A DNA stretch of 64,000 bases, taken from NCBI RefSeq assembly GCF_013403915.1, contig NZ_JABFDI010000012.1, positions 1-64,000 on the forward strand. Reading direction: 5' to 3'. The position numbers and the translations under genes were made by a program. This document shows, in pieces, positions 4,958 through 63,948 of the stretch. The stretch comes from Winogradskyella pacifica. Its GTDB lineage: Bacteria > Bacteroidota > Bacteroidia > Flavobacteriales > Flavobacteriaceae. The stretch's first letter is position 1. The number at the start of each line of letters is the position of its first letter. The notes under the pieces are model-generated. The model ran no database searches, was not told the origin of the DNA, and was given only the letters and a program-made list of their open reading frames with translations.

Positions 4958-5521
4958 TTAAGCAATTATTTTTTTACATAAATTTTTAGACTCAACAATA
5001 GGCCAATCTTCTTGGTGTAAGTGACTTTCTCCAACAGCACTTTCATAGAGTAAATATATTTGTCTTGCGAGTGAATTTACTTGTTCACTTTTAACTTGCT
5101 CTAAATTGCTGGTGATCAGTTTTGCGATAAGTGCGATAAAACTGTTTTTCTGAGATTGAATTTCATGTCTAATACTCTCATTGTCTTTTGGTATTTCTGA
5201 AACGGTTTTAATACACCAACACCCATTAAAATCTTTATCCTGATAAAACAGTTGAAGGAAATCGAATATCGCTAGGATCTGATCTTTTCCTTTTGGTTTA
5301 GAGGTCGTGAAATTTTCAAAATCTTCTAAAAAATTGACATTCTTGTATTGGAGATATGCCAGACAAATGTCTTCTTTAGATTTAAAATGATTATAAAGGG
5401 TCGCCTTAGCAATGCCTGCTTCAGCAATAATTTGATTGATACCTGTAGAATTATACCCATTCTTATAAAATAAAAATGAGGCCGTTTCTGTAATTCTATT
5501 TTTTACTTCGGCATGTTTCAT
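4958..5521 (-). CDS. TetR/AcrR-family transcriptional repressor
   Basis: A regulator of 187 residues from the chosen start. The N-terminal helix-turn-helix is clear: NRITETASFLFYKNGY followed by STGINQIIAEAGIAKATLY and NHFKSKEDI. The C-terminal ligand domain includes FNGCWC, suggesting a cysteine-containing pocket or sensor. An upstream in-frame Met exists (5557), but the ATG at 5521 is preferred: a TATATTTG box at 5526-5533 would put the transcript start at about that ATG, and MKHAEVKNRI is a normal TetR start. Palindromes before this gene and before the SDR gene suggest autoregulation plus control of the SDR gene. The ligand is unknown. Confidence 0.9.
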   Translation of the reverse strand: MKHAEVKNRITETASFLFYKNGYNSTGINQIIAEAGIAKATLYNHFKSKEDICLAYLQYKNVNFLEDFENFTTSKPKGKDQILAIFDFLQLFYQDKDFNGCWCIKTVSEIPKDNESIRHEIQSQKNSFIALIAKLITSNLEQVKSEQVNSLARQIYLLYESAVGESHLHQEDWPIVESKNLCKKIIA

Positions 5522-5525
5522 GGTG

Positions 5526-5533
5526 CAAATATA
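5526..5533 (-). promoter_or_regulatory. Putative tetR promoter -7 box
   Basis: The minus strand reads TATATTTG, matching TAnnTTTG, only four bases before the ATG at 5521. The operator covers the expected -33 position, where a TTG lies inside the palindrome. This suggests a leaderless or near-leaderless transcript blocked by repressor binding. Confidence 0.6.
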
Positions 5534-5547
5534 TAAAATAATTCTAA

Positions 5548-5565
5548 AAACAGACAAGTCTGTCT
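5548..5565. promoter_or_regulatory. TetR-type operator in the tetR promoter
   Basis: AAACAGAC, spacer AA, GTCTGTCT: the same palindrome as at 4922-4939 with one mismatch in the left arm. It overlaps the -33 region of the putative tetR promoter, as expected for autorepression. Confidence 0.8.
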
Positions 5566-5572
5566 ATTTTAT

Positions 5573-5935
5573 TTATTGAGTATCTTTAAATTCTTCTTTC
5601 ATTTTTTTCTCGACTTTAACGATTAATAAAACTACCATTAAAATCATTAAACCTAAGCCTAACATAGTAGAAATACTTTCAGCTGGCTCGTACACCAAAC
5701 CAACTAATCCAAATACTGAAAGTAGAAGTCCGTATTTTATCATTTGTTTAGAGGCATATAGCTGTGCAAAATCCCATCTCACTTGATTTTTCATAGAACT
5801 TGCTGTTCTATAGCCATAGAGTCCATTGATTTTCTTTGGTGGAAACTTATACATTATCAGTCCTACAACGCAAAAAATGAGTCCGCTACTGAATGGAATT
5901 AAAAATAATGGATTTTCGAATAACATGTTATTCAT
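5573..5935 (-). CDS. SdpI/YhfL-family membrane protein
   Basis: A 120-residue inner-membrane protein with three predicted membrane segments (about 10-28, 66-84 and 90-106). The conserved loop KINGLYGYRTASSMKNQVRWDFAQ between segments one and two is the SdpI/YhfL family signature. In Bacillus SdpI gives immunity to the SdpC toxin, but most family members, including this one, have no demonstrated role and no sdpC-like gene is nearby. It is the last recognisable chromosomal-type gene before the accessory patch on its right. Confidence 0.75.
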   Translation of the reverse strand: MNNMLFENPLFLIPFSSGLIFCVVGLIMYKFPPKKINGLYGYRTASSMKNQVRWDFAQLYASKQMIKYGLLLSVFGLVGLVYEPAESISTMLGLGLMILMVVLLIVKVEKKMKEEFKDTQ

Positions 5936-6094
5936 TTCTATTCGTGGTTTTTACTGGAAGAATAAATGTTTTGTTGTGTTGCTAAGCAACTAAGTTAGCA
6001 AATAAATCACGGAGAGAATATTCCGTAGGAATTAGTAAGTTGACATTGACCAAGCAATTAATTATACATGGTGTTGCAACTGTAATTTTTTAAA

Positions 6095-6382
6095 TCAGAG
6101 ACTATTCTTCAAATCCTGTTTTCCAACTATCGCCATAATTTCCACGATATTATTATTTATTTTGTAATAAATACTATCAGCACCAGAAACACACCGTCTA
6201 TATCCAGTTTTTATGTAATCGACAGATTCAAAAGAAAATGGGTTTTTAGCTATAATATCAAAGTTCTCAAAGAAAGAATCGAAATATTTATCAGCCTGAG
6301 CCGTTCCGAATTTTGCCACTCCATATCTATGAATTCTTATTAAATCTTCTTTGGCTAAATTACTTAGTTTATAATCAGCCAT
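6095..6382 (-). CDS. ParE/RelE-superfamily toxin
   Basis: A 95-residue protein of the ParE type. Family features are the start YKLSNLAKEDLIRIHRYG, FDIIAKNPFSFESVDYIKTGYRRCVSGADSIYYKI and the C-terminal VEIMAIVGKQD. ParE toxins poison DNA gyrase; related RelE toxins cleave mRNA, and sequence here favours ParE by partner type. It overlaps the upstream antitoxin stop by one base (TAATG), the normal translational coupling of such pairs. Arg43-type core residues are represented by the GYRRC segment. Confidence 0.85.
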   Translation of the reverse strand: MADYKLSNLAKEDLIRIHRYGVAKFGTAQADKYFDSFFENFDIIAKNPFSFESVDYIKTGYRRCVSGADSIYYKINNNIVEIMAIVGKQDLKNSL

Positions 6383-6615
6383 TAAATCAACGACTTAGAT
6401 TCCGCTAATATTTGTTCTTTGCTTAAATTCGTAAATCCGCTATTTTCGGCCTTTTGCAATTTAGCACTAATCCAGTCAATTTGTCTTTGCTGTTTTCTTG
6501 CTTGTCTAATTAAATCGTTTACTAATTCACTTTTAGTTGAATACTCTTTTTTATCAACTTGTTCTTTTAACCACTCATCATTCGGTTGAGTGAATGAAAT
6601 ACTTTGCCTTCCCAT
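6382..6615 (-). CDS. ParD-family antitoxin
   Basis: A 77-residue antitoxin. The start at 6615 (MGRQSISFTQPNDEW) is preferred over an in-frame ATG 33 bases upstream, because ParD proteins begin right at the DNA-binding ribbon-helix-helix strand. The motif KKEYSTKSELVNDLIRQARK matches the ParD ribbon-helix-helix. The rest (IDWISAKLQKAENSGF) is the toxin-wrapping tail. It would bind and neutralise the downstream ParE and repress the shared promoter. The spacer upstream is followed by the large palindrome at 6703. Confidence 0.85.
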   Translation of the reverse strand: MGRQSISFTQPNDEWLKEQVDKKEYSTKSELVNDLIRQARKQQRQIDWISAKLQKAENSGFTNLSKEQILAESKSLI

Positions 6616-6702
6616 ACTATTTAATTTTGGTGCTAATTTACACCACAAATGTATATTTTACAAATTAATATCCAATATCAGTTCGTAGGTTTTTATAGTT
6701 AC

Positions 6703-6893
6703 CAACGTTAAGTATAAGAAATCGTAGGGCAGTTAAAAAGAACTGTCGTTTCGGTTTGTTACTTAGCTAAATATAAATATTTTGCTTTTATCTTTTCTAT
6801 TATAAACGCCAAATTTTATATTTAGCGGACTTTGTTAATATGTACAGGCCTTTTGGTTTAGCACAAACGCCCTATGTTTTTTATACCGTGTTG
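6703..6893. repeat. Long imperfect palindrome (attC-like, MITE-like or structured RNA)
   Basis: The 191 bases fold back on themselves in nested steps. CAAC (6703-6706) pairs with GTTG (6890-6893). Bases 6712-6730 pair with 6869-6886: 18 pairs including two G.T and one bulge. GTTTGT (6754-6759) pairs with ACAAAC (6863-6868). Bases 6766-6777 pair with 6815-6826 as 12 perfect pairs, extended by about five more. It lies 15 bases past the stop of the 281-residue gene and about 90 bases upstream of the parD start. It contains no gene. The layout, a gene followed by a folded site, resembles an integron cassette, but a small transposon relic or RNA is equally possible. Confidence 0.7.
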
Positions 6894-6903
6894 TACATAG
6901 TGC
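6888..6903 (+). repeat. Inverted repeat, left copy
   Basis: GTGTTGTACATAGTGC, five bases beyond the stop of the 6909-7754 gene. It matches the complement of the right copy at 7770-7785 at 15 of 16 positions. It overlaps the right end of the long palindrome. Confidence 0.7.
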
Positions 6904-6908
6904 TTTTA

Positions 6909-7754
6909 TCAGCTAATCTGTTTTATGTTTTCTGCAACACCAATAAGCACGACCTCTTTAAGGTAATCATCAAAATCTATTGAAAAAAAAACTCCAAATT
7001 CTTCAGAGTTTTTAAAAACGGTATCTACTAATTTCCAACCATCTTTTGGAATATAATTTCCAGTAATTTCAGTTAGATGTGCTTTCGAATACGATGTATT
7101 ATGTGTGTAATCATTTCTTATACTGTATAAGTATTTTTCCTTTTCTAAATCAGGTAAATCTCCATCGATATATTCTCCGATTACATTTCCTATTGAGGTA
7201 TAATTATTTGTTATTTTAATTTTACTAAACAAAGTTTCACGAGAATTTTCTGTGATTACTTTTCTTAGAAATTTGATAAAAGAATTTTTTACACCATAAA
7301 TTTCATTGTGTTTTACGTAAAGAGCTTTTGCAAATTGAAGCTTGTCATCTTCTTCTATTTCGGAAATTATATTTTCTCTTTCAACTTTCTTTTTTGCAGA
7401 AATTAACCAATCATTAAATGGTTGTCTATTTTCAGGTTGACCTAATTGATCAAAACAAGTAAGCAACAGATAAGTTCTTAATGGTGGGTATGAATATCTT
7501 TTAATGATTTGTCCGCTCTCATTTTTCACTTCTTCATCCAATAATTCTACTAACTGTATTCTTTCATATACCTCTAATAAAATTCTAACTTTTGATTTTT
7601 TCCAATTGTCTTTATTAGGTTTTTGTCTCAAGTTATTATCGTGCCTCTCGCAAATTGATTTAAAACCGTTTAAGTATTCTTCTTTATTTATCCAATTTGA
7701 AACATTTTCATAAAGACTATTTATTATATTTCTATAGGCTTTAAATGTGGTCAT
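6909..7754 (-). CDS. Protein of unknown function with HEPN-like Rx4H motif
   Basis: A 281-residue soluble protein, not recognised as a named family. It is rich in charged, helix-forming sequence with no signal peptide or membrane segment. Residues 205-225 (EKYLYSIRNDYTHNTSY) contain R213-N-D-Y-T-H218, which fits the Rx4H catalytic motif of HEPN ribonucleases, including the usual polar residue after Arg. HEPN proteins are common in toxin and antiphage systems, and the neighbours here are parDE and dinD. No nucleotidyltransferase (MNT) partner is present. It is bracketed by inverted repeats 6888-6903 and 7770-7785. The HEPN reading is an inference from one motif. Confidence 0.6.
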   Translation of the reverse strand: MTTFKAYRNIINSLYENVSNWINKEEYLNGFKSICERHDNNLRQKPNKDNWKKSKVRILLEVYERIQLVELLDEEVKNESGQIIKRYSYPPLRTYLLLTCFDQLGQPENRQPFNDWLISAKKKVERENIISEIEEDDKLQFAKALYVKHNEIYGVKNSFIKFLRKVITENSRETLFSKIKITNNYTSIGNVIGEYIDGDLPDLEKEKYLYSIRNDYTHNTSYSKAHLTEITGNYIPKDGWKLVDTVFKNSEEFGVFFSIDFDDYLKEVVLIGVAENIKQIS

Positions 7755-7769
7755 TTTTTTTGTTTTTTG

Positions 7770-7785
7770 GCATTATGTACAACAC
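7770..7785 (-). repeat. Inverted repeat, right copy
   Basis: GCATTATGTACAACAC, 16 bases upstream of the start of the 6909-7754 gene. Its complement matches the left copy at 6888-6903 with one difference, so the gene is tightly bracketed by a 16-base inverted repeat. Confidence 0.7.
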
Positions 7786-7814
7786 ATAAATATACGTAAG
7801 TCAAGTTATAAACA

Positions 7815-7948
7815 TCTAATTCAACTTATAAATTATATCATGCTCCTTCAAACTATTTAAAAGCTGTTGCGAAATCTTAACTTTATTTTTTCGGCTTGGC
7901 ATCTGTACTTTTATCTTTTCAGCATTATCATATACCACAAAATTTAAG
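7815..7948 (-). pseudogene. Orphan copy of the dnaE 3' end
   Basis: These 134 bases match 8851-8984 without gaps, with five differences. Read on the minus strand they encode the last 43 residues of DnaE (LNFVVYDNAEKIKVQMPSRK onward, ending IIYKLN) and the same TAG stop. All five differences are third-position and silent (Val, Val, Arg, Gln, Leu codons). The copy has no start and no upstream part of the gene, so it is a fragment left by a recombination event. It marks one side of a 1036-base unit that contains dinD. Confidence 0.92.
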
Positions 7949-7997
7949 ATTCAGTATTTTGGACAAAAACACTTAGAATGATCATGATTTAATTTTG

Positions 7998-8837
7998 TTA
8001 TTTTAATTTATCCGGATTCTTTCCTAATTTCTTAGATTCAGAAGAAACTCTTCTTTCTAGTTTCTTAATATCTTCTTCTGCAGGTAATTCTTCTGGCTTA
8101 ATTCCTCTTTCAATAAGTAATCCTCTTACTCCTTTGTTATTCTTAATATGTTCGTAAGAAATACTACTTTCTCTCTTGTATCCTTTTTCCTTTGTATTGA
8201 ACACAGTAATTTCAGTAGCAAAATCCTTAGCTTTAATGGTTATTGTTGGAAGAAAATCTGCTAATGCTCGACCTTTAGGGACTCCAAGTTTATTTTTCAT
8301 TTGTTGCGTTGTTTTACCGAACAATGCCTTATCTCCTTTACTTCTTATTAAACCGAAATTTTTATCACTTCCTGTTTTTTCATATATAAGTTCTGAGAGC
8401 TCTTTTTCCGAACTACTAAGTTTTAAACGGGCTTGTAATCTTTCCCAATCTTTTATTCTCTGTTCAATTATTTCAAACTTTCTAGTTTGAATAGCAAAAT
8501 AATTCTGAGCAAAAGAAATTTGCTCTTTTCTTGGATCTCCATTTTGTGCAATCAAGTAACACGCATATCTTGTCAACATAATATCTTCAATCTCTCTGCT
8601 ACTACCAGAACCTATTGGTACCATTTTGTTGACGTCAACAAAATGGTCTAAAATTAGATTATCAGATGCCTCACAAGAAATTTGAGCTTTAACAATAACT
8701 TTATGAAAATTCCGCCATTCTTTATATCCTAATAATTGTTGAATATCTCTTGCAAACCAAAATTCAATTCCATCTTCAGTTGTTTGAGAGTGATTTTCAA
8801 AATTATCTGTTAATGATTTTACTATTTCAGACTTCAT
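7998..8837 (-). CDS. dinD: DNA damage-inducible protein D
   Basis: A 279-residue DinD-family protein. The N-terminal BRO-N-like part reads IEFWFARDIQQLLGYKEWRNFHKVI, followed by MLTRYACYLIAQNGDPRKEQISFAQNYFA and the C-terminal DinD region (ALFGKTTQQMKNKLGVPKGRALADFLPTI). In Escherichia coli dinD is SOS-induced and its product inhibits RecA filament activity in vitro. Here it starts only 14 bases after the dnaE stop on the same strand, so it is likely co-transcribed with dnaE; no SOS box was recognised in that short gap. It lies between two copies of the dnaE 3' end, which suggests it arrived by lateral transfer. Confidence 0.92.
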   Translation of the reverse strand: MKSEIVKSLTDNFENHSQTTEDGIEFWFARDIQQLLGYKEWRNFHKVIVKAQISCEASDNLILDHFVDVNKMVPIGSGSSREIEDIMLTRYACYLIAQNGDPRKEQISFAQNYFAIQTRKFEIIEQRIKDWERLQARLKLSSSEKELSELIYEKTGSDKNFGLIRSKGDKALFGKTTQQMKNKLGVPKGRALADFLPTITIKAKDFATEITVFNTKEKGYKRESSISYEHIKNNKGVRGLLIERGIKPEELPAEEDIKKLERRVSSESKKLGKNPDKLK

Positions 8838-8850
8838 ATTAACGTCTTTT

Positions 8851-8984
8851 TCTAATTCAACTTATAAATTATATCATGCTCCTTCAAACTATTTAAGAGT
8901 TGTTGCGAAATCTTAACTTTATTTTTACGGCTTGGCATCTGCACTTTTATCTTTTCAGCATTATCATAGACCACAAAATTTAAG
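8851..8984 (-). repeat. dnaE 3'-end direct repeat, functional copy
   Basis: The terminal 134 bases of the intact dnaE gene, repeated in the same orientation at 7815-7948 with 96 percent identity. The two copies bracket dinD. Confidence 0.92.
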
Positions 8985-11900
8985 GTTTGAGTGCCTTCAT
9001 GGAATTTTATTAAGTCATACAACACAGAAACTGTTTCCCTTTCTAAATCCTTAATATTTAATTGAATCGATAACTTTTTAGCATAGGTATCCATCACATC
9101 ATGCAACAACTGGAAACTATTAAACTGAATCCTTGGATCCCCTTTTTTACCTGTGTCTCTATTTACCCAACCTTCTCGGACAAATGCTCTGACATACACA
9201 AAAGAGTTAATCACAAAAAAGTGTCTAAACTTTAGATAATCTTCTCCAAAAATTCGAAACTCAAAACTATCGGTATAATCTTCAATGGTAAAAATAGCCC
9301 AACCTTTTCCTTGTTTACTCACACGATGTTGCACATCGGTGACAACACCTCCAAAAGTAACTTCTTTGTTTACAATGGTTTCCAAATCATTAAAATGCGC
9401 CACCACTCCGTTGCAGAAGGTTTTCATTTCAATATTAAAATCATCTAATGGATGACCAGAAATATAAATCCCAACCACTTCACGTTCTCGCGATAATTTC
9501 TCCATCGTTCCCCAATCTTCACATGGAGGTACAATAGGTTCTGCAATCTGAACATCACTTGCCGCACCAAATAAACTGACTTGCGCCGAGTTCTCATTTT
9601 CCTGATGTTTGGCTCCATACTTAACTGCTTTTTCTAAAAAGCTAATACCATCACCTTCATCTGCAAAGTATTGCGCTCGGTGTGTATCTGCCCAACAATC
9701 AAAACCACCTGCATTCGCTAACCCTTCAAAAGCTCTTTTATTGGCAGCACGCAAATCAATACGTTTGGCAAAATCGAAGATAGATTTATAGTGTCCATCT
9801 TCTTTTCTGTTGTCTACAATCGTTTGAACAGCTCCATGACCAACACCTTTTATCGCTCCCATTCCGAAACGAACGGCATTATCTTTATTTACTGAAAACT
9901 TGTAAAAACTTTCATTAACATCGGGTCCTAAAACCGGTAAGCGCATCCGTTTACATTCTTCCATAAAGAAGGTTACGGATTTAATATCATTCATATTATT
10001 GGATAATACCGCAGCCATATATTCTGCTGGGTAATGCGCTTTTAAATAGGCCGTTTGGTAAGCAATCCATGCATAACATGTGGAGTGCGACTTGTTAAAG
10101 GCGTAACTCGCAAAGGCTTCCCAATCCTTCCATATTTTTTCTAACTTTTTAGCATCTAAACCTTTTGCACTTGCTTGTTCAATGAATTTTGGTTTCATCT
10201 TATCCAAAACAGCAATCTGCTTCTTACCCATTGCTTTTCTCAAGACATCGGCTTCACCTTTGGTAAAGTCAGCCAATTTTTGAGACAGTAGCATTACTTG
10301 CTCTTGGTAAACCGTAATTCCGTAAGTTTCCTTAAGGTATTCTTCCATTTCTGGTAAATCGTACACAATCTCTTCATCACCATGTTTACGCGCAATGAAA
10401 CTTGGAATATATTCCATCGGACCAGGACGATACAAGGCGTTCATGGCAATTAAATCATCAAAAACCGTAGGTTTAAGATTCTTCATGTGTTTTTGCATTC
10501 CAGGCGATTCATACTGAAACACACCAACCGTTTCTCCACGCTGGAATAACTCGTACGTTGGCACATCATCTAACGGAAAATTCTCTGGATCGAGTAAAAT
10601 ATCGTGCTTGGCTTTTACAAGTTTAACCGTATCCTTAATTAAGGTTAACGTTTTTAATCCCAAGAAATCCATCTTTAACAGCCCTGCATCTTCTACAACA
10701 GAGTTATCAAATTGGGTAACATATAAATCGGAATCCTTAGCCAGCGCAACAGGCACATAATTGGTAATATCTCCCGGTGTAATGATTACACCACAAGCGT
10801 GAATCCCTGTATTACGAACCGAACCTTCTAAAATCCGTGCTTGGTTGATGGTTTCGGCTTGTAAATCATCACCATCAGAAATATTGAGTAATTCATTAAT
10901 TTTCTCTAAATCTTCAGCTCTAAATTTACTTGCTAATTCTTTTTCCGAAAGTCCAAAAATCTTGCCTAGTTTAGACATCAGCGGAATTAATTTCGCAATA
11001 TGATCGGCTTCATTAAGTGGTAAATCTAAAACTCTGGCGGTATCTCTAATTGAAGATTTTGCAGCCATGGTTCCGTAAGTAATAATCTGCGCTACTTGGT
11101 TAGAACCATATTTATCAATTACATATTGCATCACACGACCTCGACCTTCATCATCAAAATCGATATCAATATCGGGCATACTTACACGATCTGGATTTAA
11201 GAAACGCTCAAAAAGTAAATCGTACTTTATCGGATCAATATTGGTAATCCATAAACAATAGGCAACCACCGAACCTGCTGCAGATCCACGCCCAGGACCA
11301 ACGGAAACATCCATTTTTCGGGCTTCGCGAATAAAATCTTCTACAATTAGGAAGTAACCTGGATAACCCGTTTTTTCAATAACGCTCAACTCAAAATCGA
11401 GACGCTCTTCAATAGCTGGTGTAATCTCACCATAACGTATTTTGGCACCTTTGTAGGTTAAATGTCTTAGAAATGCATTTTCTCCACGTTTACCGCTATC
11501 GGCTATATCTTCTTCAAATTTAAATTCTTCAGGAATATCAAACGCAGGCAATAATACAGCTCGCGCTAATTCGTAAGGCTCAATCTTATCGACTACTTCT
11601 TGAATATTTACAATTGCTTCTGGCACATCCTTAAAGAGTGCTTTCATTTCTGCTGAAGACTTAAAGTAATATTCCTGATTTGGTAAACCATAACGATAAC
11701 CACGACCACGACCAATTGGCGTCGCTTGTTTTTCACCATCTTTTACACACAATAAAATATCGTGCGCATTGGCATTTTCTTGATCGACATAATAAGTATT
11801 ATTGGTGGCGACCAATTTAACATCATGCTTTTTTGCCAATTGAATTAATACCGGATTCACCCGATTTTCATCCTCTTGGTTATGACGCATTATTTCAATA

Positions 11901-13231
11901 TATAAATCATCTTGAAACGTTTCTTTCCACCATAATAAGGCTTCTTCCGCTTGATTTTCACCAACGTTTAAAACCTTACTTGGTACTTCACCATACAGGT
12001 TTCCGGTTAAGCAGATTAAATCTTCTTTGTACTGTTCAATCAATTTTTTATCAACTCTTGGTACATAATAAAAACCATCCGTAAAGGCCGCAGATGATAA
12101 TTTTGCTAAATTGTGATAGCCTTTTTTATTCTTGGCCATTAACACAATTTGATACCCATTATCTTTTCTGGTTTTATCTGCGTGATTTTCGCACACAAAA
12201 AACTCACAACCGATAATTGGTTTCATGATTTTACCTTTCTTTTCTAATCCAGCTTCTTCTGCTTGTTTGTGTTGTGCTTTTACGCCTTTATTATGATTAG
12301 AAACTGCAGTCACAAAGTGAAATGCTCCCATCATATTTCCGTGATCCGTCATCGCGACGGCCGGCATATTTTCTCTGGCAGCTGCAGCCACTAAATCTTT
12401 AACGCTAATCGTCGATTGAAGAATGGAATACTGTGAATGGTTATGTAAGTGTGCAAAATCAACATCTTTAATTTGCGATGCCGCTTCTTTATCGATGGTT
12501 ATAGGTACCGCTTGTTCCTTTTGAAGGCGCGCATTAATCTTAGCACTTTCTTTTTTTAGATTAATGTGTTTTAAACCGATAAGCTGAACTTCCGCAGGGT
12601 TTTCTTGAGTGAAATTCTCAAAATATTCTGGCTCTACATCTAACTGCTCTTTGGTGTATTGTTTACGTCTTATTAATTCTAAAAAACAACGTGTCGTTGC
12701 TTCCACATCGGCTGTAGCATTATGAGCTTCAGAAAATGGTTTATTAAATAAGTACTCATGTAATTCCGTTAAAGTTGGCAATTTAAACTTCCCGTAACGT
12801 CCACCTGGCAACTGACACAAACTTGCTGTATGTTCGGTACAGGTATCTAAAACTGGTAATTCTTGAAGTGGATTCGTAACGTTTTCACGTACAAATTCCG
12901 CTCCCATAATATTTAAATCGAACTTTACATTCTGACCAACAACGAATTTCGTTTTAGCCAAAGCCGCATTAAATTTCTCTAAAACTTCAGAAAGTGGCAC
13001 ACCTTGTTCTTGCGCTAATCCTGTTGAAATACCATGAATTTTTTCAGCATCATACGGAATATTAAAGCCTTCTGGTTTTACCAAATAGTCTTCGTGTTCA
13101 ATACAATTTCCCATACCATCATGCAATTGCCAAGCAATCTGAATACATCTTGGCCAATTATCAGTATCGGTAATTGGTGCATCCCAGCGTTTTGGTAATC
13201 CTGTGGTTTCGGTATCGAATATTAAGTACAT
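8852..13231 (-). CDS. dnaE: DNA polymerase III alpha subunit with N-terminal proofreading domain
   Basis: A 1459-residue replicative polymerase. Residues 1-190 form a DnaQ-like 3'-5' exonuclease: FDTET with Asp6/Glu8, GQNVKFD with Asp105, and HNATAD with His170/Asp175. The PHP domain begins near 258 (HLHNHSQYS, His261/263/265). The polymerase core has GPGRGSAAGS at 646-655 and PDIDIDF at 686-692 with the catalytic Asp residues, followed by the HhH and OB-fold regions (KEVTFGGVVTDVQHR). Fusion of exonuclease and DnaE is typical of this phylum, where it replaces or supplements a separate epsilon subunit. The last 44 codons are duplicated at 7816-7947 and dinD follows 14 bases downstream. Confidence 0.96.
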   Translation of the reverse strand: MYLIFDTETTGLPKRWDAPITDTDNWPRCIQIAWQLHDGMGNCIEHEDYLVKPEGFNIPYDAEKIHGISTGLAQEQGVPLSEVLEKFNAALAKTKFVVGQNVKFDLNIMGAEFVRENVTNPLQELPVLDTCTEHTASLCQLPGGRYGKFKLPTLTELHEYLFNKPFSEAHNATADVEATTRCFLELIRRKQYTKEQLDVEPEYFENFTQENPAEVQLIGLKHINLKKESAKINARLQKEQAVPITIDKEAASQIKDVDFAHLHNHSQYSILQSTISVKDLVAAAARENMPAVAMTDHGNMMGAFHFVTAVSNHNKGVKAQHKQAEEAGLEKKGKIMKPIIGCEFFVCENHADKTRKDNGYQIVLMAKNKKGYHNLAKLSSAAFTDGFYYVPRVDKKLIEQYKEDLICLTGNLYGEVPSKVLNVGENQAEEALLWWKETFQDDLYIEIMRHNQEDENRVNPVLIQLAKKHDVKLVATNNTYYVDQENANAHDILLCVKDGEKQATPIGRGRGYRYGLPNQEYYFKSSAEMKALFKDVPEAIVNIQEVVDKIEPYELARAVLLPAFDIPEEFKFEEDIADSGKRGENAFLRHLTYKGAKIRYGEITPAIEERLDFELSVIEKTGYPGYFLIVEDFIREARKMDVSVGPGRGSAAGSVVAYCLWITNIDPIKYDLLFERFLNPDRVSMPDIDIDFDDEGRGRVMQYVIDKYGSNQVAQIITYGTMAAKSSIRDTARVLDLPLNEADHIAKLIPLMSKLGKIFGLSEKELASKFRAEDLEKINELLNISDGDDLQAETINQARILEGSVRNTGIHACGVIITPGDITNYVPVALAKDSDLYVTQFDNSVVEDAGLLKMDFLGLKTLTLIKDTVKLVKAKHDILLDPENFPLDDVPTYELFQRGETVGVFQYESPGMQKHMKNLKPTVFDDLIAMNALYRPGPMEYIPSFIARKHGDEEIVYDLPEMEEYLKETYGITVYQEQVMLLSQKLADFTKGEADVLRKAMGKKQIAVLDKMKPKFIEQASAKGLDAKKLEKIWKDWEAFASYAFNKSHSTCYAWIAYQTAYLKAHYPAEYMAAVLSNNMNDIKSVTFFMEECKRMRLPVLGPDVNESFYKFSVNKDNAVRFGMGAIKGVGHGAVQTIVDNRKEDGHYKSIFDFAKRIDLRAANKRAFEGLANAGGFDCWADTHRAQYFADEGDGISFLEKAVKYGAKHQENENSAQVSLFGAASDVQIAEPIVPPCEDWGTMEKLSREREVVGIYISGHPLDDFNIEMKTFCNGVVAHFNDLETIVNKEVTFGGVVTDVQHRVSKQGKGWAIFTIEDYTDSFEFRIFGEDYLKFRHFFVINSFVYVRAFVREGWVNRDTGKKGDPRIQFNSFQLLHDVMDTYAKKLSIQLNIKDLERETVSVLYDLIKFHEGTQTLNFVVYDNAEKIKVQMPSRKNKVKISQQLLNSLKEHDIIYKLN

Positions 13232-52757: not shown

Positions 52758-54296
52758 TTACATTTTCATTAGCCAATGCTTCACATCAACCTCTGCTTTT
52801 ATAATTTCTTTTAAATCTTCAATCTTTACACGTTTTTGATCCATAGTATCTCTATGACGAATCGTTACGGTATTGTCTTCTAAAGTATCGTGATCTACTG
52901 TAATACAAAATGGTGTTCCGTTGGCGTCTTGCCTTCTGTAACGTCTACCAACCGTATCTTTTTCTTCATAAGCAACATTGAAGTCCCACTTTAAATCCTC
53001 AACAATCTTTTTAGCAACCTCAGGTAAACCATCTTTTGCCAATAAAGGAAATATAGCAGCTTTAACAGGAGCTAATACAGCCGGAAGTTTTAAAACAGTA
53101 CGTGTTTTACCATCTTCTAATTCTTCTTCAACCAAAGCATTTGAGAACACAGCTAAAAACATACGATCTAAACCAATAGAAGTTTCAAGAACGTAAGGTG
53201 TGTAGCTTTCGTTATCTTCATGGTCAAAATATTGTAATTTCTTACCAGAAAATTCTTCGTGTTGCTTTAAGTCAAAATCTGTACGCGAGTGAATTCCTTC
53301 CAATTCTTTAAACCCGAATGGGAACTTAAATTCGATATCGGTAGCAGCATCAGCGTAATGCGCCAATTTTTCATGATCGTGGAAACGGTAATTTTCTTCT
53401 CCCATTCCAAGAGAAAGATGCCACTTCATTCGTGTTTCTTTCCAATGCTCAAACCATTTTTTTTGTGTGCCTGGTTTAATAAAAAATTGCATTTCCATTT
53501 GTTCAAACTCACGCATTCTAAAGATAAACTGTCTTGCAACAATTTCGTTTCTAAATGCTTTTCCTGTTTGTGCAATTCCGAAAGGAATTTTTAAACGTCC
53601 TGTTTTCTGAACATTTAAAAAGTTAACAAAAATACCCTGAGCTGTTTCTGGACGTAAATACAAATCCATCGCCGTTTCTGCAGAAGCACCAAGTTTAGTT
53701 CCAAACATTAGGTTAAACTGCTTAACGTCTGTCCAATTACGACTTCCTGCTACAGGACAAGCAATTTCTAATTCTTCGATTAATGCTTTTACGTCTGCTA
53801 AATCTTCTTTTTCTAAAGATTGGCCTAAACGTTTTAAAATAGTATCGATTTTTTCTTGATACCCAACAACACGTCCGTTAGTAGAAATAAATTCTTCTTT
53901 ATTAAAAGATTCTCCAAAGCGTTTTTCTGCTTTTTTAACTTCTTTTTCAATTTTAGCTTCAATTTTTAAACAATAATCTTCTACTAAAACATCTGCTCTA
54001 TAGCGTTTTTTAGAATCCTTATTATCAATTAAAGGATCGCTAAAAGCATCAACGTGTCCGGAAGCCTTCCAAGTAGTTGGATGCATAAATATTGCAGCAT
54101 CAATCCCTACAATATTATCGTGCATTTGTACCATGGCTTTCCACCAATAGTCTCTGATATTTTTCTTTAATTCTGCTCCATTTTGAGCATAATCGTATAC
54201 TGCGCTTAGTCCATCATAGATTTCACTACTCTGAAACACGTAACCATACTCCTTTGCGTGAGAGATTACTTTTTTAAATTGATCTTCGTTTGCCAT
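52758..54296 (-). CDS. glyS: Glycyl-tRNA synthetase (homodimeric type)
   Basis: A 512-residue class II synthetase of the alpha2 type. Motif 2 is FRNEIVARQFIFRMREFEQMEMQFF, motif 3 is ETSIGLDRMF, and the C-terminal anticodon domain begins with LPAVLAPVKAAIFPL. MVQMHDNIVGIDAAIFMHPTTWKASGHVDAF near the start is diagnostic of this type. It charges tRNA-Gly. Confidence 0.97.
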   Translation of the reverse strand: MANEDQFKKVISHAKEYGYVFQSSEIYDGLSAVYDYAQNGAELKKNIRDYWWKAMVQMHDNIVGIDAAIFMHPTTWKASGHVDAFSDPLIDNKDSKKRYRADVLVEDYCLKIEAKIEKEVKKAEKRFGESFNKEEFISTNGRVVGYQEKIDTILKRLGQSLEKEDLADVKALIEELEIACPVAGSRNWTDVKQFNLMFGTKLGASAETAMDLYLRPETAQGIFVNFLNVQKTGRLKIPFGIAQTGKAFRNEIVARQFIFRMREFEQMEMQFFIKPGTQKKWFEHWKETRMKWHLSLGMGEENYRFHDHEKLAHYADAATDIEFKFPFGFKELEGIHSRTDFDLKQHEEFSGKKLQYFDHEDNESYTPYVLETSIGLDRMFLAVFSNALVEEELEDGKTRTVLKLPAVLAPVKAAIFPLLAKDGLPEVAKKIVEDLKWDFNVAYEEKDTVGRRYRRQDANGTPFCITVDHDTLEDNTVTIRHRDTMDQKRVKIEDLKEIIKAEVDVKHWLMKM

Positions 54297-63792: not shown

Positions 63793-63919
63793 TTAAATTT
63801 ATTTTGTTGAAAGGTAATTAAAATGAATCTGGCTAAAAAGTTTGTTTTGTCAAATGCACTAACGATTGAAACGGCATCCTTTTTTGAGGCACGAGAAAAA
63901 GATATAGTGAAAAGCGTGG

Positions 63920-63948
63920 TTTAATTTGGTGCTAAAAACCAAATTAAA
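63920..63948. repeat. Hairpin near right edge
   Basis: TTAATTTGGT (63921-63930) pairs perfectly with ACCAAATTAA (63938-63947) around a 7-base loop. It has no T run; purpose unknown. Confidence 0.45.

Follow-up and report, generated by a model that had tools for sequence, protein, structure and literature searches.

A dinD gene between two synonymous dnaE ends in Winogradskyella pacifica: a likely import that restored the polymerase gene

In the 64,000-nucleotide stretch of Winogradskyella pacifica DNA analysed here (the window), a single gene, dinD, was found between two direct copies of the 3' end of dnaE, and the two copies differ only at silent positions. Read from the sequence, the arrangement likely reflects the import of foreign DNA that restored dnaE as it entered. 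The reading to which we give somewhat better than even chances is a one-sided import, anchored in dnaE and closed by an illegitimate joint, which left the old dnaE tail behind as a scar.

The dinD locus and the dnaE-downstream slot

The genes of the locus lie on the minus strand. The dnaE gene (8852 to 13231) encodes the DNA polymerase III alpha subunit, 1,459 aa from the ATG, with an N-terminal exonuclease domain. Its last 43 codons and stop form the current 3' end (copy B, 8851 to 8984, minus strand), and a spacer of 14 bases (8838 to 8851, minus strand) separates the dnaE stop from the start of dinD (7998 to 8837, minus strand), which encodes 279 aa with a Bro-N domain (Pfam PF02498) and is the only cargo. 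Past the dinD stop, 49 bases of insert DNA (7949 to 7997, minus strand) lead up to the junction with the second dnaE tail; matches to nine other dinD loci reach no farther than the first bases of this segment. It is followed by copy A (7815 to 7948, minus strand), a displaced dnaE 3' end, in the best reading a scar, in which the 43 codons and stop are still open. The flank beyond it (7746 to 7814, minus strand) is found directly after dnaE in W. psychrotolerans RS-3 and corresponds to the empty-site junction. The first gene past the scar is a 281-aa ORF with no family assigned (6909 to 7754, minus strand), and a ParD/ParE-like pair lies farther along the slot downstream of dnaE (6095 to 6648, minus strand). 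The 281-aa ORF is flanked by a 16-base inverted repeat (6888 to 6903 and 7770 to 7785, 94% complementary), a motif found elsewhere in the window at about the chance level (four matches with at most two mismatches; 4 of 100 shuffles reached four). Flavo-1 RNAs are present in the window at 1940 to 2024, upstream of trxA, and at 63844 to 63925.

The original prediction described a direct, ungapped repeat of the dnaE end, 134 bases long with five mismatches, and recomputation confirmed it. The ORFs likewise bore out the predicted unit of 1,036 bases, which is the distance from the start of copy A to the start of copy B, with dinD as its only cargo beginning 14 bases past the dnaE stop; on the dnaE strand, dinD is the sole ORF of at least 80 aa between the copies. 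The source genome contains these two matches to the dnaE end and no others. Exact repeats in the 4-kb region reach 46 bases, compared with a maximum of 16 in 200 mononucleotide shuffles. The dinD product was assigned to NCBIfam NF008573 over residues 1 to 278 of 279 (E = 8.5e-107; 356.8 bits against a curated cut-off of 242) and also matched the PADLOC candidate family PDC-S13 (E = 1e-114).

Among the 60 genus genomes searched, dinD was found in the source genome only (0 of the 59 others). In wider searches, with the source included and weak or partial matches counted, dinD turned up in 13 genomes among 299 of the family and in 27 among 395 of the order. A DnaE tail was detected in 66 of 68 genus genomes, twice in the source genome (G000) and once in each of the other 65. 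In RS-3, which has no dinD, the dnaE end runs into a flank matching 7746 to 7814 of the window; tail and flank together span 206 bases at 90.8% identity. Since dnaE there continues straight into the DNA that follows copy A, RS-3 represents the empty-site form, the kind of site with a single dnaE end that the original prediction had proposed to look for. The first gene past dnaE in RS-3 has no similarity to that of the window. Across 80 named loci, with up to 6 kb of downstream DNA each (1.6 to 3.3 kb only at five), no bracketing repeat of the last 600 dnaE bases was found downstream, and only short chance matches were observed. The idea that dinD is a unit that always carries direct repeats was rejected, as no long repeat brackets dinD at 14 additional loci of the gene, fragments among them, with about 1.5 kb on each side. 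The dinD locus L039 has a 53-base pair (75%, E = 0.001) that spans most of dinD.

Winogradskyella genomes have a variable slot behind dnaE (4958 to 8851 of the window and its equivalents in L077 to L097). In 21 loci, with slot genes named by eye, the first ORF of at least 80 aa behind dnaE was trxA in 8, a TetR-type gene in 5 and another gene in 8. Nine proteins were scanned with PADLOC, and three, dinD included, matched candidate families, which are not established systems. The other two were a DUF2971 protein in the W. costae slot, matching PDC-S31 (E = 4e-50), and a 179-aa ORF in the RS-3 slot, matching PDC-M36A over part of the profile only (E = 3e-9).

A palindrome within dinD

The dinD coding sequence includes a perfect palindrome of 28 bases (8620 to 8647, strand not assigned). 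The one Asp codon of its eight-codon core is GAC and the one Asn codon is AAC; in the remainder of dinD, Asp is encoded by GAT 13 times and by GAC once, and Asn by AAT 11 times and by AAC once. The lone outside GAC abuts the core, and its last base belongs to the palindrome. From 40 dinD-type loci (among L032 to L045, L165 to L190 and L214 to L223), 30 were aligned, with the exclusion of four that repeated a 28-mer present among the others and of six distant relatives. In the alignment, 93.3% of the palindrome cells pair, compared with 31 to 58% when the frame is slid by 1 to 3 bases, and 7 of the 14 pairs change on both sides (53 cells), the amino acids changing along with them. The paired changes on both arms, together with the rare codons, point to selection at the DNA or RNA level inside the gene. 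The six distant relatives (23 to 33% identity) are without the dyad (2 to 6 of 14 pairs), and only 3 to 10 of 14 positions pair in the relatives from E. coli, Thiothrix, Zymomonas and Nostoc. The identical 28-mer is present in four viral dinD relatives (35.5 to 41.7% protein identity); the palindrome peptide was one of six used in the viral scan, which biases detection and leaves the codons unbiased.

At least 120 viral stretches contain the pattern ACCATTTT-N3-GA-N2-TC-N3-AAAATGGT, and 60 contain the variant ATCATTTT...AAAATGAT, while in the viral-contig controls a non-palindromic rearrangement was found once and another palindrome never. Of the 180 viral matches listed (L228 to L407), 23 lie in dinD and 123 outside ORFs of at least 90 aa; the other 157 fetched viral stretches among the matches listed gave no DinD match. 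In 1.5 Mb of bacterial loci, chosen partly for dinD, the pattern was found only in dinD-holding loci. The neighbours of 95 non-redundant intergenic sites showed no common family, with at most 3 of 139 ORFs alike (139 of 143 ORFs scanned, with 108 distant ORFs as the Pfam control). Partial matches were also seen in Flavobacterium phage FpV9, 93 bp upstream of a DNA packaging gene, and inside dinD in Streptococcus satellite phages. Nothing relevant to the palindrome appeared among the literature matches listed, and its absence from print is not claimed. As a guess, the palindrome could be a site bound by DinD itself.

Duplicated dnaE ends in three other genera

A profile of 21 DnaE tails was searched against 397 family genomes, of which 376 matched, five of them twice. 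Four of the five are real, the source genome included; the two tails of the fifth, G171, lie on contigs that overlap by 991 bp at 97% identity and were rejected as an artefact. The remaining three genomes represent three other genera, and each has a different cargo between its duplicated dnaE ends, an arrangement that the original prediction had proposed to look for in close relatives. In G424, tails of 164 bp with 98.2% identity lie 6.9 kb apart and enclose four genes, including those for TonB-plug and DUF4249 proteins. In G466, the tails are 106 bp long, 92.5% identical and 1.5 kb apart, with a MarR-type gene between them, and in G278 tails of about 126 bp (78.6%), 4.2 kb apart, enclose a gene for a PLD-domain protein. 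The second tail of G424 shows two silent changes and one mismatch that creates a stop at its upstream edge, and that of G466 shows six amino-acid or stop changes. Judged by these changes, the second tail looks like a decaying leftover, and the scars range from nearly intact to heavily decayed. All four tails fall between 106 and 164 bases, a narrower range than random joints suggest, although the profile is blind to much shorter tails and the search unreliable for those much shorter than about 30 residues.

The neighbours of the outer tails were compared with related genomes. Two genes follow the G466 scar (ArsR and SRPBCC types by eye), and scar and genes together match, over 933 bases at 73%, the unbroken order behind dnaE in the genus-mate G277. 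A 528-aa ORF begins about 117 bp past the G424 scar; in W. endarachnes, a homologue with 63% identity sits about 113 bp past dnaE. The genus-mate of G424, G820, has the same four-gene cargo in the same place without a scar, and the alignment of the two genomes is unbroken (86%) to within 8 bases past the scar start. Because scar neighbours are found directly behind dnaE in relatives, and the same cargo is scarless in G820, the outer tail looks old, and the cargo looks to have come with the new tail. For G424, the mirror order, in which it was the tail with its neighbours that came in later, fits equally well. A hairpin-like element is conserved just before the G424 and G466 scars (L199 for G424, L207 for G820, L201 for G466), with relatives downstream of dnaE elsewhere (similar in L142, L103, L115 and others). 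By eye it resembles a Flavo-1 RNA, an assignment that was dropped because Rfam gave no call at E 0.5.

Ancestry of the two copies and mode of import

Copies A and B differ at 5 of 134 bases, and each difference, across 43 codons and the stop, is a silent change in the third position of its codon; extended to 137 bases, the comparison includes a sixth mismatch (95.6% identity). Of the possible single changes in this stretch, 69 of 396 (about 17%) are silent, and the probability of five silent differences out of five in an unconstrained copy is about 1.6e-4 with equal weights. The exclusively silent differences therefore argue for two separately functional histories. They are the strongest argument for import, which they favour and do not prove. 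The claim that both copies evolved as working dnaE ends also agreed with their nearest relatives, W. costae for copy A and W. psychrotolerans RS-3 for copy B (131/134 in each case, compared with 129/134 between A and B). Both copies fall within the diversity of close Winogradskyella species, and at three of the five sites (46, 49 and 76) both alleles are present among the four closest relatives, RS-3, W. costae, W. thalassocola and G005. The proposed phylogeny did not separate the two copies firmly: forcing A and B into one clade costs 2.78 log units with a p-AU of 0.0865, so that a sister relation is not rejected.

Copy B runs on into dnaE, and the boundary of a donor tract could not be placed. 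Divergence along dnaE against RS-3, W. costae, W. thalassocola, W. marina and strain D3R19 gave no donor tract edge, the comparison with RS-3 losing register about 1.75 kb from the stop. The RS-3 dnaE (G031/L077) seems to be interrupted at this distance from its stop, with 612 aa open compared with about 1,464 in the window. No donor with a dnaE-dinD arrangement was found among the genomes searched.

Under a one-sided import, linear DNA from a close Winogradskyella lineage, carrying the 3' part of dnaE and then dinD, would have entered the cell and been anchored by homologous recombination inside dnaE. The gene would thereby have taken over the donor 3' end with its protein unchanged. The far end of the insert, having no homology there, would have been joined illegitimately within the recipient's dnaE, some 134 bases short of the stop, and the old tail, copy A, would have been pushed to the downstream side of the cargo and left there as a scar. 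From the anatomy we infer the donor, how the events were ordered and of which type each joint is. A likeness is proposed to homology-facilitated illegitimate recombination, described by Amarir-Bouhram et al. (PMC3240628) as RecA-dependent and integrase-free, with one homologous and one illegitimate joint, the latter usually at microhomologies of 3 to 10 bases. Microhomology could be examined in one case only, that of G424, where, with G820 as a stand-in for the donor, the DNA after the cargo and dnaE have 7 to 9 bases in common. The process was shown there in laboratory transformation and conjugation, whereas here it is read from anatomy. A mechanism akin to it was also proposed for Vibrio T6SS immunity arrays (Kirchberger 2017, PMC5361080). 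As in the effector displacement described there, a conserved upstream anchor is retained, a new module comes to lie in front and the old 3' region is pushed downstream; in Vibrio, however, the new 3' end alters the protein, whereas the dnaE end here is synonymous.

Uptake as a circle is a possible, distinctly less probable account. A circle of about 134 bases of dnaE 3' end plus dinD, integrated by one RecA-dependent crossover, would make A and B both hybrids and would yield the observed layout without an integrase; in the E. coli study cited above (PMC3240628), linear DNA has two reported fates, one being ligation into a circle followed by a single crossover. When A and B were swapped at the five informative sites in turn, the nearest relatives lay 2 to 7 bases away at every cut, with no clear crossover. 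A swap after base 49 places one reciprocal haplotype within 2 bases of RS-3, as hybrids would allow, but a different swap point places the other within 2 bases of W. costae, and none stands out. Moreover, 134 bases is short for such homology, and the circle for G424 would need about 6.9 kb. We consider it unlikely that the unit is a remnant of a site-specific element, or one moved in trans, with the dnaE 3' end as its attachment site, like e14 at icd. Phage 21 presumably restores the icd 3' end likewise. The precedent is close, in that incoming e14 DNA restores a housekeeping gene at its 3' end, the differences being mostly silent (PMC11148124; 165 bp duplicated, with 12 exchanges and two conservative replacements), and the anatomy seen here recurs in four genera. 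Yet e14 is an integrase-bearing prophage, whereas the window unit is one gene without a recombinase. Integrase-like ORFs were seen by eye 2 to 5 kb downstream of dnaE in G466, L087, L089 and L094, outside the tail-bounded interval, and the one in G466 begins about 200 bases after a tRNA gene (6340 to 6413), beyond the scar. Within the four tail-bounded intervals no integrase was seen in ORF lists read by eye, with Pfam on 8 of 13 ORFs (dinD only in the window unit, and 7 of the 12 ORFs of at least 60 aa in G424, G278 and G466). The inner boundary of the repeat differs each time (134, 164, 106 and about 126 bp), G820 has the cargo of G424 without a second tail, and searches of the viral contig, phage and plasmid collections gave no DnaE tail. 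With no recombinase seen, no constant boundary and no mobile DnaE tail, the attachment-site reading, and with it the tRNA-like site for an integrating element in the original prediction, is unsupported.

That the dnaE end was duplicated locally when dinD inserted, by a long target duplication followed by divergence, appears about as improbable as an attachment site. Insertion with long target duplication is known from Helicobacter pylori (Nobusato 2000, as cited in PMC1643837), where cargo likewise lies between long direct repeats of resident sequence, and the acceptable clade of A and B is in its favour. Such copies, on that account, are born identical, whereas A and B sit on different alleles; all five differences are silent although A would have been free to decay, both alleles at three of the five sites occur among the closest relatives, and the older case, G466, decays plainly non-silently. 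We regard an assembly or binning artefact as very improbable: the genome is a draft of 94 contigs, and the G171 duplicate proved to be two overlapping contigs, but both copies here lie on one 138-kb contig with contamination of 0.05%, and G424 and G278 are listed as single-contig genomes.

A preference for dnaE over other genes is not shown, as the control gives it no support. The tail of a control gene in the window (52758 to 54296, glyS by eye), a shorter query with 35 aa of a single sequence against the 50-position dnaE-tail profile, matched 356 of 395 genomes, one of them (G182) twice. Real double tails thus amount to 4 of 397 for dnaE and at most 1 of 395 for the control, which is no clear excess. 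The double match in G182 may be a similar scar at another core gene. When 666 ORFs from 89 sequences (1.15 Mb) were scanned, three scars emerged, each at dnaE and each in a sequence that had been selected for its scar; the decayed G278 pair was missed, and the scan therefore underestimates. It is doubtful, though conceivable, that the Flavobacteriaceae dnaE 3' end is a recurrent, integrase-free acquisition site at which tails of about 100 to 165 bp let host recombination excise and re-insert the cassette. Unconventional circularizable structures are likewise integrase-free cargo between long direct repeats; the window repeats, however, are a core-gene end, and the structure here was read in linear sequence. 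Variable slots beside core genes that do not need an integrase are familiar from the hotspots of Oliveira 2017 (PMC5635113), many of which are without mobility genes and recombine at flanking core genes. Double homologous recombination was inferred for those hotspots, whereas here one side left a scar.

The kind of process behind a one-sided import is already known; what would be new is the synonymous replacement of the end of an essential gene and its recurrence in four genera. It suggests a route by which a gene is gained beside an essential replication gene, without an integrase and with the essential protein unaltered, and a likely effect is that dinD would be read from dnaE transcription. 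The slot behind dnaE houses candidate anti-phage genes in two cases, the window and W. costae, with a weaker case in RS-3. If the dnaE end does act as an acquisition site, an incoming synonymous end with short cargo, in part candidate defence genes, would be accepted without cost because the polymerase gene is restored. The decay of the scars is readable and the scars can be counted across genomes, so that one-sided illegitimate import, known mainly from laboratory transformation, would become measurable in nature.
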